Shown: one piece after another, positions 4,273-44,218 of the stretch
Numbering within the stretch: position 1 is the stretch's first letter
How the letters are laid out: each line of letters opens with the position of its first letter
DNA from: a virus
Length of the DNA stretch: 52,639 nt
Strand: one strand, 5' to 3'
IMG/VR virus record: IMGVR_UViG_3300017740_000007
Location: 1 to 52,639 of that record
Program-made: the position numbers and the translations under genes
The notes under the pieces: generated by a model
What the model was told of the DNA's origin: nothing
The model's input: only the letters and a program-made list of their open reading frames with translations
The model's database searches: none

Positions 4273-5868
4273 TTAATTTTTATCCTCGTAAGTCCTAGCC
4301 ATAGTTATAATAGCATTGGTAGAAAGAATTGTTACTGCTACAGACACTGCGTTCTGCAATGCCGACTTAGTTACTTTTAACGGGTCAATAACACCCAACT
4401 TATACATATCTCCCCACTTGCCTTCTTTTACATCGAACCCATTGTTGTATCCGATTTTGTTTATTTCAACAGAAGCCTCATATTGACCTTCATATTTTAT
4501 TCCTGCGTTCTCCCATATTTGTTTTAAAGGAGCACGAAGTGCTCTCGCTAAAATTTGTTTAGCTACAGTATCATCACCTATATTATAGGATTCCTGCATT
4601 AAAGCTGAACCACCACCCGGAAGTATACCTTCTTCTAAAGCTGAGCGTACTGCACATACTGCATCATCAATCCTATCATAAAGTTCTTTTTGTTCTAGGT
4701 CAGTTTGACCTCCAACATAAATAACACCTACACCACCTGTGAGTGTTGCAATCCTTGATAGTATAAACTCTGCATTGTTTTTATCTGATTCTCTTTTGTG
4801 TGCTTCTTTTAATTCTTTAATTCTTTTATAGATTTCGCCATCTCCAATAACATCATCTTTAATGATGACGGTTGAGTCACGACCAACTATCACCTTAGCA
4901 CAGTGACCCAAATCTTCTAACGTCATCAAGCTTAAATCATCACCGGTCTTTTCACTATAGTAAGTGGCACCAACACTTAAAGCAATGTCTTGCATTAGTT
5001 CGTGTTGTTTGTATCCAAATGATGGGGGTCCAATAGTACAAAGCTTTAATCCGTTCTTCATTACATTCGCAGCTAGAGTGTTTGTTACATTAGCTGAGGT
5101 TGGTGCAATAATTAATAATCTTTTGTTTTCTGAGATTACAGGTTTTAAAACATTCTCTATGTGTAGTAGGTTTTCAATAGGTGCATCACTAACTAGGATA
5201 TAACAATCTTCTAGTATACACTCATCTTTCTTTTGGTTGTTTACAAACAAAGGTGATTCATAACCTCTTTCAACCTTTAGTCCATTTGTAGATTCATAAT
5301 ATGTTTCTGATGTTTGAGACCTATCAATAGTAACCAATCCGTTTATACCTACCTTTTTATATACGTCTGATATAATAGCACCCAACTCTTTATCGTTGTT
5401 TGCTGATATAGTAGCAACGTCTTTTAATTTTTTTTGTGTAACTTTTGTCGATTTCTTTTTTAAGTTATCGCATACAGTTTCTGTTAGAGAAACTAATTCT
5501 CTTAATACTGATGTTTTATTTTCAGTTATAAGTTCTGCACCTGCTTTGACTAAAGCTTCTGTAAGAACAATTGCAGTTGTGGTTCCATCACCTGCTGAGG
5601 TTGCAGTTCTTTCTGCTGCCTCTTTCATCATCTTCACCGCAAGGTGCTCGGTGGGGTCTATAAGTGCAACTGACTTTGCAACTGTTACTCCGTCTTTAGT
5701 AACTGTTATTCCGTGTGTGTGTTGTGGGGATTCTATTAGAACGGTTTGACCGGCAGGTCCTAGTGTAGACTTTACTGCAGAAGATAATGTTTCAATTCCT
5801 TTGTATAATTTCTTTCTACCCTCTTCATCGAACAATAAGTTCTTTGGAGTATATCCTATATTAGACAT
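4273..5868 (-). CDS. groEL: GroEL-like 60 kDa chaperonin
   Basis: This 531-residue group I chaperonin, close to full length, should form the ATP-driven cage for folding virion proteins with the phage GroES. ATP-site residues are present: TKDG with Asp59, GDGTTT at 93-98, Asp402 at the place of E. coli Asp398 (YDRIDDAVCAVRSAL), and GILPGGGSAL. The apical domain keeps substrate-binding landmarks (VERGYESPLFVNN, LLIIAPTSANV, GPPSFGYKQHELMQDIA). The usual GGM-repeat tail is missing; the protein ends ITMARTYEDKN. Phage GroELs are uncommon but known. It heads a transcript with a 53-codon gene and groES, behind a TATCTTTG box at 5892-5899. Confidence 0.96.
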   Translation of the reverse strand: MSNIGYTPKNLLFDEEGRKKLYKGIETLSSAVKSTLGPAGQTVLIESPQHTHGITVTKDGVTVAKSVALIDPTEHLAVKMMKEAAERTATSAGDGTTTAIVLTEALVKAGAELITENKTSVLRELVSLTETVCDNLKKKSTKVTQKKLKDVATISANNDKELGAIISDVYKKVGINGLVTIDRSQTSETYYESTNGLKVERGYESPLFVNNQKKDECILEDCYILVSDAPIENLLHIENVLKPVISENKRLLIIAPTSANVTNTLAANVMKNGLKLCTIGPPSFGYKQHELMQDIALSVGATYYSEKTGDDLSLMTLEDLGHCAKVIVGRDSTVIIKDDVIGDGEIYKRIKELKEAHKRESDKNNAEFILSRIATLTGGVGVIYVGGQTDLEQKELYDRIDDAVCAVRSALEEGILPGGGSALMQESYNIGDDTVAKQILARALRAPLKQIWENAGIKYEGQYEASVEINKIGYNNGFDVKEGKWGDMYKLGVIDPLKVTKSALQNAVSVAVTILSTNAIITMARTYEDKN

Positions 5869-7657: not shown

Positions 7658-7673
7658 GTGTCTTCAAAGACAC
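7658..7673 (+). repeat. 16-bp palindrome family, copy 2
   Basis: GTGTCTTCAAAGACAC, between the first early gene and the amidoligase ATG at 7691. It sits in the leader of the amidoligase. Confidence 0.95.
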
Positions 7674-7690
7674 AAAAAACCACAGATAAA

Positions 7691-8638
7691 ATGATAAACG
7701 AAATCACATACACAAATTCAAACGAATCTCAGAGAGGAAGAATGTCTCGTTACCATTCTTCTCCTCAGCCAAGAGAGATGCACAAAGGTGCTAAGAATAC
7801 TGATATCGCAAATCTAAAGACTACCAAGAAACGTAATCTTTTAGTAGATGAGAATGGAGACCACAAGTCTAAGTTCACTATCGGTATTGAAGTTGAAAAG
7901 AACAGATTAAGTTCTAGAGCAGTGACTGAATATCCTTTGTTCAAAGGATTTGAAAGAGATAGTTCTTGCGGTTATGAAGCTATAACTAATATCTTACCAT
8001 TGCTACCTAGCGGTAAATGGAGAAACAAAGTTTTCAATATGATGTTTGAAGCTAGAAAAATTATTGAAGACCAATACTCTCCAAGTGACTACAGATGTGG
8101 TGGTCACGTTACATTAGGTGTTGAGGGAATGAATGGTCAACAGATTATGAAAGCAATCAGAAAGAATTGTGGAATACTACATTCTTTATTCTTTAAAAGA
8201 CTTAAGAATGGATATTGCAAGAACAATCTAACAATGCTACCATACGATGAAGAAATGATGAATGGTGGTGGTAGATACCAATTCTGTTTAGATAAAGGTA
8301 ATCTAATCGAGTTTAGAGTTGTATCTCGTTTTCAATCGGTAAAGCAAATGATGAGAAGATACGAGTTGTTCTACGAGTTACTTGACTTTTCAATTAACAA
8401 TCCAAATGGAAACCACAATACTTTTCTTAAGAAAATTACACCAATCATTAAGTCTATGTACAATGGCGATATGGACAAGGTAAACGAAAAACTTGAGTTG
8501 GCTAAGACATTTAGAAAGATGATATTAACCAACAAAGTAAGTAGACCAATTATTGACTATGTTGACCCAATGAGAAGACTTGATGCACAGAAGTGGTACG
8601 ACAGAGAGTTACTCAGAAATGGGTACAGAGCAATCTAA
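7691..8638 (+). CDS. Amidoligase-family protein (COOH-NH2 ligase fold)
   Basis: This 315-residue protein shows the motifs of the putative amidoligase family (PF12224 type), a glutamine-synthetase-fold group predicted to join a carboxyl to an amine using ATP. Visible motifs: GIEVE (65-69), Asp90 and Glu96 in FERDSSCGYEAITNI, CGGHVTLG with His139, and LIEFRVVSRFQS with Glu207 and Arg209, which match the family order GxExE, D-S...G.E, CG.HV, EFR. The first 60 residues are basic and Ser/Lys-rich. I start at ATG 7691; an in-frame GTG at 7658 lies inside the repeated palindrome and is unlikely. Family neighbours elsewhere often include class II amidotransferase and cyclotransferase genes, and such a fusion lies at 10433 here. 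Likely substrates are peptides or cell-wall glutamates (inference). Confidence 0.82.
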   Translation: MINEITYTNSNESQRGRMSRYHSSPQPREMHKGAKNTDIANLKTTKKRNLLVDENGDHKSKFTIGIEVEKNRLSSRAVTEYPLFKGFERDSSCGYEAITNILPLLPSGKWRNKVFNMMFEARKIIEDQYSPSDYRCGGHVTLGVEGMNGQQIMKAIRKNCGILHSLFFKRLKNGYCKNNLTMLPYDEEMMNGGGRYQFCLDKGNLIEFRVVSRFQSVKQMMRRYELFYELLDFSINNPNGNHNTFLKKITPIIKSMYNGDMDKVNEKLELAKTFRKMILTNKVSRPIIDYVDPMRRLDAQKWYDRELLRNGYRAI

Positions 8639-8644
8639 TCTAAA

Positions 8645-8674
8645 AGGGGTAGTGTCTTTAAAGACACTACTCCT
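8645..8674 (+). repeat. Long hairpin after the amidoligase gene
   Basis: A 15-bp near-perfect inverted repeat with one G-U pair. The 22-bp core GTAGTG...CACTAC is perfect and encloses copy 3 of the 16-bp palindrome. It starts 7 nt after the stop codon and ends at the ribozyme. No U-run follows, so simple termination is unlikely; it would cap the 3' end left by ribozyme cleavage. Confidence 0.85.
8652..8667 (+). repeat. 16-bp palindrome family, copy 3 (perfect palindrome)
   Basis: GTGTCTTTAAAGACAC, the fully self-complementary form, at the tip of the hairpin between the amidoligase gene and the ribozyme. Confidence 0.95.
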
Positions 8675-8724
8675 CTGTCTGAGGATGAGTGTCCTCACTG
8701 ATGAGTTCAAAAGAACGAAACAGA
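8674..8724 (+). ncRNA. Type III hammerhead ribozyme
   Basis: All conserved parts are present and correctly ordered. Stem III is TCTGT (8674-8678) paired with ACAGA (8720-8724). The cleavage base is C17 at 8679. Stem I is TGAGGA (8680-8685) with TCCTCA (8692-8697) around a 6-nt loop. The catalytic core is CTGATGA (8698-8704). Stem II is GTTC/GAAC (8705-8708, 8713-8716) around AAAA, starting with the usual G10.1-C11.1 pair. GAA (8717-8719) follows and then A15.1, which pairs with U16.1 (8678). Cleavage should fall between 8679 and 8680 and separate the amidoligase mRNA from the genes downstream. Hammerheads are known in bacteria and phages. An intact core with three complementary stems makes a chance match very unlikely. 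Confidence 0.94.
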
Positions 8725-8752: not shown

Positions 8753-8989
8753 ATGAAAAATCAAATCAGAAATTATGCAGAAACAATTGTTTATGTATCA
8801 GTAACCTTAGGAGTCTTCTCAATGGTAGGTAGACTATTAGTCCACATTCTTTTTAACGATGCTAGAATGCTATTACAAAGCGTGAGTGGAGCAGTATCAA
8901 TGCTAGTTGTATGTGCGTTCTTATTGTTCTGTATGTATGCGACAAGTCTACTTATTATAGCTGACATAAAAGAGAGACACAATGCATAG
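8753..8989 (+). CDS. Small membrane protein with two transmembrane segments
   Basis: This 78-residue protein has hydrophobic segments at about 13-34 (VYVSVTLGVFSMVGRLLVHI) and 46-68 (AVSMLVVCAFLLFCMYATSL), joined by a short polar loop, with a charged C-terminus. It is the first gene after the ribozyme, 28 nt downstream of it, so its mRNA would carry the 3' ribozyme fragment as leader. Lying between the amidoligase and a secreted transglycosylase, it may act at the host envelope, but no family is recognised. Confidence 0.72.
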   Translation: MKNQIRNYAETIVYVSVTLGVFSMVGRLLVHILFNDARMLLQSVSGAVSMLVVCAFLLFCMYATSLLIIADIKERHNA

Positions 8990-44172: not shown

Positions 44173-44203
44173 AAAAAAAGGGAGTGTCTTTGAAGACACT
44201 CCC
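44173..44203 (-). terminator. Terminator after the capsid gene, built on the 16-bp palindrome
   Basis: On the minus strand GGGAGTGTCTT, a 2-nt centre and AAGACACTCCC form an 11-bp inverted repeat, followed by seven U residues. The inner 16 bases are copy 10 of the genome's palindrome family. It should end or thin out transcription after the major capsid gene. Confidence 0.92.
44184..44199 (-). repeat. 16-bp palindrome family, copy 10
   Basis: GTGTCTTTGAAGACAC on the plus strand (GTGTCTTCAAAGACAC on the minus strand), forming the upper stem of the capsid-gene terminator. Confidence 0.95.
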
Positions 44204-44218
44204 CTATTAAATATCTGC

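Follow-up and report, generated by a model that had tools for sequence, protein, structure and literature searches.

Hammerhead ribozymes (HHRs) have been reported in phages and prophages, where they flank genes (Perreault 2011, PMC3088659, accessible text). Clustered phage HHRs were proposed there to trim long transcripts to operon- or gene-length mRNAs, and some were shown to be active: tandem HHRs cut polycistronic RNAs of about 2 kb in vitro and an HHR array of A. tumefaciens cut in E. coli (PMC3088659, accessible text). What hammerheads do in bacteria and phages has been an open question since 2011. The halophages HF1 and HF2 carry a hammerhead variant in a phage early region that sets a 5' end of a polycistronic transcript; it has a variant core and lies in a leader, not between genes. 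The theta (HDV-like) ribozymes of gut phages (PMC10879173) are also self-cleaving RNAs in phage genomes but are ribozymes of a different class, associated with tRNAs and recoding. Finally, RNase P cuts non-tRNA transcripts such as polycistronic mRNAs and the C4 RNA of phages P1 and P7 (as cited in the accessible text of PMC11143913), a process that needs host RNase P and no ribozyme in cis.

The window analysed here is a whole virus record of 52,639 nucleotides. It carries a type III HHR that resembles the clusters of Perreault 2011 in flanking genes and in its proposed role in transcript cutting. As a ribozyme it is of a known kind and a phage hammerhead as such is not new. The new part is the boundary unit formed by a hairpin and the HHR, its geometry, and its apparent exchange with small tRNA-like RNAs (mini-tRNAs). 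A keyword search of the accessible text of PMC3088659 returned no flush hairpin, no fixed spacing from stop codon to HHR to start codon, no Bacteroidota phages and no tRNA-like alternatives. In the open-access literature, no publication was found that connects hammerheads to Flavobacterium phages, nor any description of the hairpin-HHR unit or of the mini-tRNA swap; most subscription papers fell outside this scope, so that absence from the literature is weak evidence. The original prediction knew of no described hammerhead in such a setting. This has to be narrowed, since phage HHRs are known (PMC3088659, accessible text); for Flavobacterium phages, none was found described in the open-access literature.

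The hammerhead of the window and its neighbours

The features of the locus are the following.

7691..8638, + strand: upstream gene, 315 aa, with 28 relatives in IMG/VR
8645..8674, + strand: hairpin AGGGGUAGUGUCU-UUAA-AGACACUACUCCU, 13 bp, directly 5' of the HHR
8674..8724, + strand: type III HHR (RF00008, 47.5 bits; covariation)
8679..8680, + strand: predicted cleavage site, after C17 (C8679), from sequence and RF00008 alignment
8698..8704, + strand: catalytic core CUGAUGA
8717..8719, + strand: catalytic core GAA
8725..8752, + strand: A/T-rich leader of 28 nt, from the HHR to the next start codon
8753..8989, + strand: downstream gene, 78 aa, hydrophobic

The HHR reads UCUGU C UGAGGAUGAGUGUCCUCA CUGAUGA GUUCAAAAGAAC GAA ACAGA and is open at stem III (8674-8678/8720-8724, 5 bp). 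Stem I comprises 6 bp (8680-8685/8692-8697) and an additional U8686-G8691 pair, stem II 4 bp (8705-8708/8713-8716). The G10.1-C11.1 and A15.1-U16.1 pairs are both found. Position H17 is C8679, an H and not a G, which places the predicted cut between 8679 and 8680. The original prediction had given the type, the strand, the three stem lengths, both core motifs, the two pairs, the C at the cleavage site and the site itself; the RF00008 alignment and the covariation described below confirm the first three, the core elements are all present in the sequence, and sequence and alignment agree on the site. It had also proposed a plus-strand search with the Rfam hammerhead III model, which matched the HHR with E 1.6e-9 in 401 nt and E 5.1e-11 in a search of the whole record. 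A default Rfam scan at gathering threshold does not list it because the gathering score of RF00008 is 48.5, one bit higher; this value is a curators' cut-off and no structural feature. Compared with the type III HHRs of RF00008, the window copy is alike in core, permutation, the three stems, the NUH cleavage site, the conserved loop I (UGWGUR) and the A-rich loop II bases, and differs in its score just below the cut-off, its very short stems and its flush upstream hairpin. In the minimum-energy fold, stems I and II are formed and the core CUG pairs with CAG in place of stem III (-14.1 vs -13.3 kcal/mol for the stem III form, tertiary terms left out). It is the only HHR III match of the record at E <= 10, and the arrangement of retrozymes and circular RNAs, in which two HHRs flank one unit, is thus not found. 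By its sequence, 8674-8724 (+) is confirmed as a complete type III hammerhead, real and conserved, with a predicted cleavage.

The terminase has its relatives in phages that infect Flavobacterium, Cellulophaga, Tenacibaculum and Maribacter, in agreement with the Bacteroidota phage first proposed. Two other labels are weaker: the upstream gene, called an amidoligase, has no Pfam or PHROG match, and the early operon was deduced from gene order. The downstream gene has no family match in Pfam or PHROG either, and no match to a Bacteroidota-type promoter was found near the hairpin-HHR element. Elsewhere in the window, 4273-5868 (-) encodes a phage GroEL-like chaperonin (Pfam Cpn60_TCP1, E 2.7e-55).

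Conservation of the gene boundary among relatives

Relatives of the locus were fetched by homology to the upstream protein only, ignoring RNA, which yielded 28 loci in IMG/VR; this set alone is free of pattern-selection bias. In most of them an HHR lies directly 3' of the upstream gene. Across 14 distinct copies, pairing holds in 99.1% of cells and nine pairs are changed on both sides. The covariation score reaches 0.681; shuffles give 0.229, and sliding the pairing gives no more than 0.160. The compensatory changes concern all three stems, hence the HHR is not a product of chance. The Rfam scan at gathering threshold also missed the HHRs of the homologous loci L001-L013. Some cores are altered (A9 is U in L004; L007 and L008 carry U10.1/U11.1), so that activity may not persist in every homologue, and by their sequences these copies may be slow or dead. 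Downstream genes vary across the homologous loci and the position and spacing of the HHR are conserved; the HHR is therefore tied more closely to the boundary than to any single downstream gene.

These altered cores would suit an explanation in which the hairpin attenuates transcription as a terminator, the hammerhead being an incidental or decaying selfish motif. So would the fact that the same GTGTCTTCAAAGACAC stem, together with a T run, makes up a terminator-like site at 44205 (-). This explanation is highly improbable: no T run follows the hairpin at 8645-8674, and both the compensatory changes and the constancy of position and spacing next to changing downstream genes argue against it.

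A 16-nt palindrome, GTGTCTTYAAAGACAC, is repeated in the window at 7658, 8652, 9567, 10396, 13557, 14992 and 16301 (+) and at 44184 and 51334 (-), with 23 matches at <= 2 mismatches vs 0.16 expected. Some copies lie within ORFs and one is part of the terminator-like hairpin with a T run at 44205 (-).

Flush hairpins and gene spacing in viral hammerheads

A pattern scan of viral contigs returned at least 120 stretches, nearly all of them true HHRs according to a stem-checking descriptor; counts from this survey depend on the pattern, which fixes core and loops. RF00008 matched at E <= 0.01 in 34 of 37 larger virus records chosen from the listed loci, and matching records carry one to four HHRs each. 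The bases of loops I and II, between which a tertiary contact may form, are strongly conserved among viral copies. The base at the cleavage site is C in 73, A in 20 and T in 2 of the 95 distinct viral copies listed (the descriptor excluded G). The viral HHRs lie between genes: among the matches listed, their median distance is 33 nt from the preceding stop codon and 22 nt from the ATG that follows, vs 414 nt and 358 nt for the antisense-strand control.

In the window, the outermost pair of the upstream hairpin uses U8674, which is common to stem III. Such hairpins are frequent: among the matches listed, 95 of 131 viral HHRs with distinct upstream DNA have a stem of 6 bp or more whose end lies at most 3 nt from the HHR, vs 12.5 in shuffles, 6 on the mirrored downstream side and 16 in the stretch 100 nt upstream. 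After dereplication of the upstream DNA at <70% identity and removal of the commonest repeat (GTGTC..GACAC), 37 of 63 of the matches listed retain an abutting hairpin (5.8 in shuffles). The sequences of the hairpins are highly varied (GTGTCTTCAAAGACAC, GGGGGCTTCGGCCCCC, GGGAGCAGAAATGCTCCC and others). Neither the flush hairpin nor this wider pattern formed part of the original prediction.

Altogether, many related phages have the hairpin-HHR pair between genes, as though these viruses cut long messages to gene size and needed no enzyme for it. Anatomy and comparison suggest that hairpin and hammerhead are probably a self-cleaving gene-boundary element of a polycistronic phage transcript. RNA polymerase would read across the gene boundary and the hammerhead would fold and cut after C8679. 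The upstream message (7691-8638) would carry at its 3' end the 13-bp hairpin and then UCUGUC, closed by a 2',3'-cyclic phosphate; the hairpin would protect this end, which would arise with no termination of transcription. The downstream message would have its 5'-OH at U8680, within the stem I hairpin itself, and would reach the AUG at 8753 after about 73 nt. In this way a single long early transcript would become separate mRNAs with structured ends, whose stabilities could differ. The lack of a Bacteroidota-type promoter match near the element speaks for this model; the minimum-energy fold that omits stem III, the changed cores of L004, L007 and L008, and the two relatives (L009, L014) with neither HHR nor mini-tRNA at the spot speak against it.

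The spacing itself (distance 0 in 78 of the 95 abutting hairpins among the matches listed) could also indicate that coaxial stacking of the hairpin on the short stem III speeds up the ribozyme, with no protection of a 3' end. Stem III is slightly shorter in the presence of a hairpin (5.0 vs 5.6 bp, p 0.005), but the difference is small and absent in a set of genome contigs (p 0.5), and hairpins also precede mini-tRNAs, which need no such help. A pure folding aid is very unlikely, but it is only a partial rival, compatible with the boundary element described above.

The distribution of the hairpins bears on their role. They accompany 90 of 106 HHRs with a stop codon at most 70 nt upstream vs 4 of 15 others (Fisher p 7.8e-6), in counts that are limited to the matches listed and not phylogenetically independent, and most HHRs in leaders of first genes have none. 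This agrees with a role of the hairpin at 3' ends and of the HHR in making ends generally. Genome contigs show no such link between hairpin and upstream gene (31/51 vs 28/46), a mismatch that is possibly due to ORF calling or other genetic codes. In five bacterial genome contigs (L172, L191, L210, L224, L241; many such contigs are from Patescibacteria) the hairpins preceding HHRs could, by eye, form H-type pseudoknots, with GGUU pairing to a loop AACC and an A-rich third loop.

HHRs without a close upstream gene, about 20 nt before a first ATG, do exist (L030, L048, L054, L086, L143), which implies that 3'-end making is not the sole role. They are in line with an HHR serving the downstream gene only, by stripping its leader and leaving a 5'-OH that evades 5'-end-dependent decay, the upstream hairpin being a separate matter. 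Two phage examples point the same way: the HHR of the cultured Elemovirus elemoF has a divergent gene on its upstream side and is followed after 14 nt by KNV11_gp59, and a 5' end of phage HF2 lies at most 3 nt from the HHR site (PMC3088659, accessible text). Such a restricted role is unlikely, however, as it leaves unexplained the bias of the hairpins to close upstream gene ends.

Cultured Elemovirus isolates carry an HHR at a different place from that of the window (NC_055853, 17865-17921, -), by eye without an upstream hairpin. These Flavobacterium phages, with the HHR in leader position, are an available laboratory system. BLASTN of phage records with the element gave weak partial matches only, and RF00008 has no match in MW202828 (W01), the nearest of the annotated relatives. 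A candidate HHR in Cellulophaga phage phi19:3 (24.6 bits) was left uncounted, as its stems fail to close by eye.

tRNA-like RNAs at gene boundaries

In three of the homologous loci (L015, L022, L023), the spot of the HHR is occupied by a tRNA-like RNA made of an acceptor and a T arm; the T arm of L015 was read from the sequence, the predicted fold giving the acceptor stem only. ARAGORN calls no tRNA for these three structures and they have no gathering-level Rfam match. Compact forms of about 43 nt with the spacing GG-N12-UUCRANY were found by a descriptor at other boundaries of the HHR-bearing loci L024, L047, L106, L129 and L144, and also in L015 (seven in all vs none in shuffles). They lie on the strand of the HHR where one is present, several of them behind a hairpin. 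A wider scan for the T-arm pattern gave 102 distinct viral matches. In 61 of them, 6 or all 7 acceptor pairs close, vs 9.7 expected with permuted partners; the median distances are 11 nt from the preceding stop codon and 34 nt to the following ATG.

These mini-tRNA-like RNAs are likely sites of host RNase P, and the cutting of polycistronic mRNAs and of C4 RNA (cited in PMC11143913, accessible text) would be the counterpart of this form. A broader proposal, plausible but tentative, is that a 3'-end hairpin combined with either an HHR or a mini-tRNA of about 43 nt recruiting host RNase P forms an exchangeable cis kit, which would turn a single transcript into gene-length mRNAs, each with defined and structured ends, as a general and previously undescribed RNA-processing strategy. 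The stop-hairpin-ribozyme-start geometry, the loss of the hairpin without an upstream gene and the tRNA-like swap make the idea of mRNA processing directly testable.

Mini-tRNA-like positions between phage genes include L015:4912, L024:4899, L106:7681, L129:2446, L022:10549, and 5001 and 4560 (-) in L047. The 43-nt forms consist of a 7-bp acceptor, an AUGGU-like remnant and a T arm, and are not called by ARAGORN where checked. The homologous spots of L009 and L014 hold neither an HHR nor a mini-tRNA. A different structured RNA is seen there (L009:5955-6010, L014:5960-6010; CAGAAACGG..GGAUUUGGUGGU), a hairpin with an AGAAAC loop followed by GGAUUUGGUGGU; one further likely member of this type was identified among 39 pattern matches, at L417:1390-1440.
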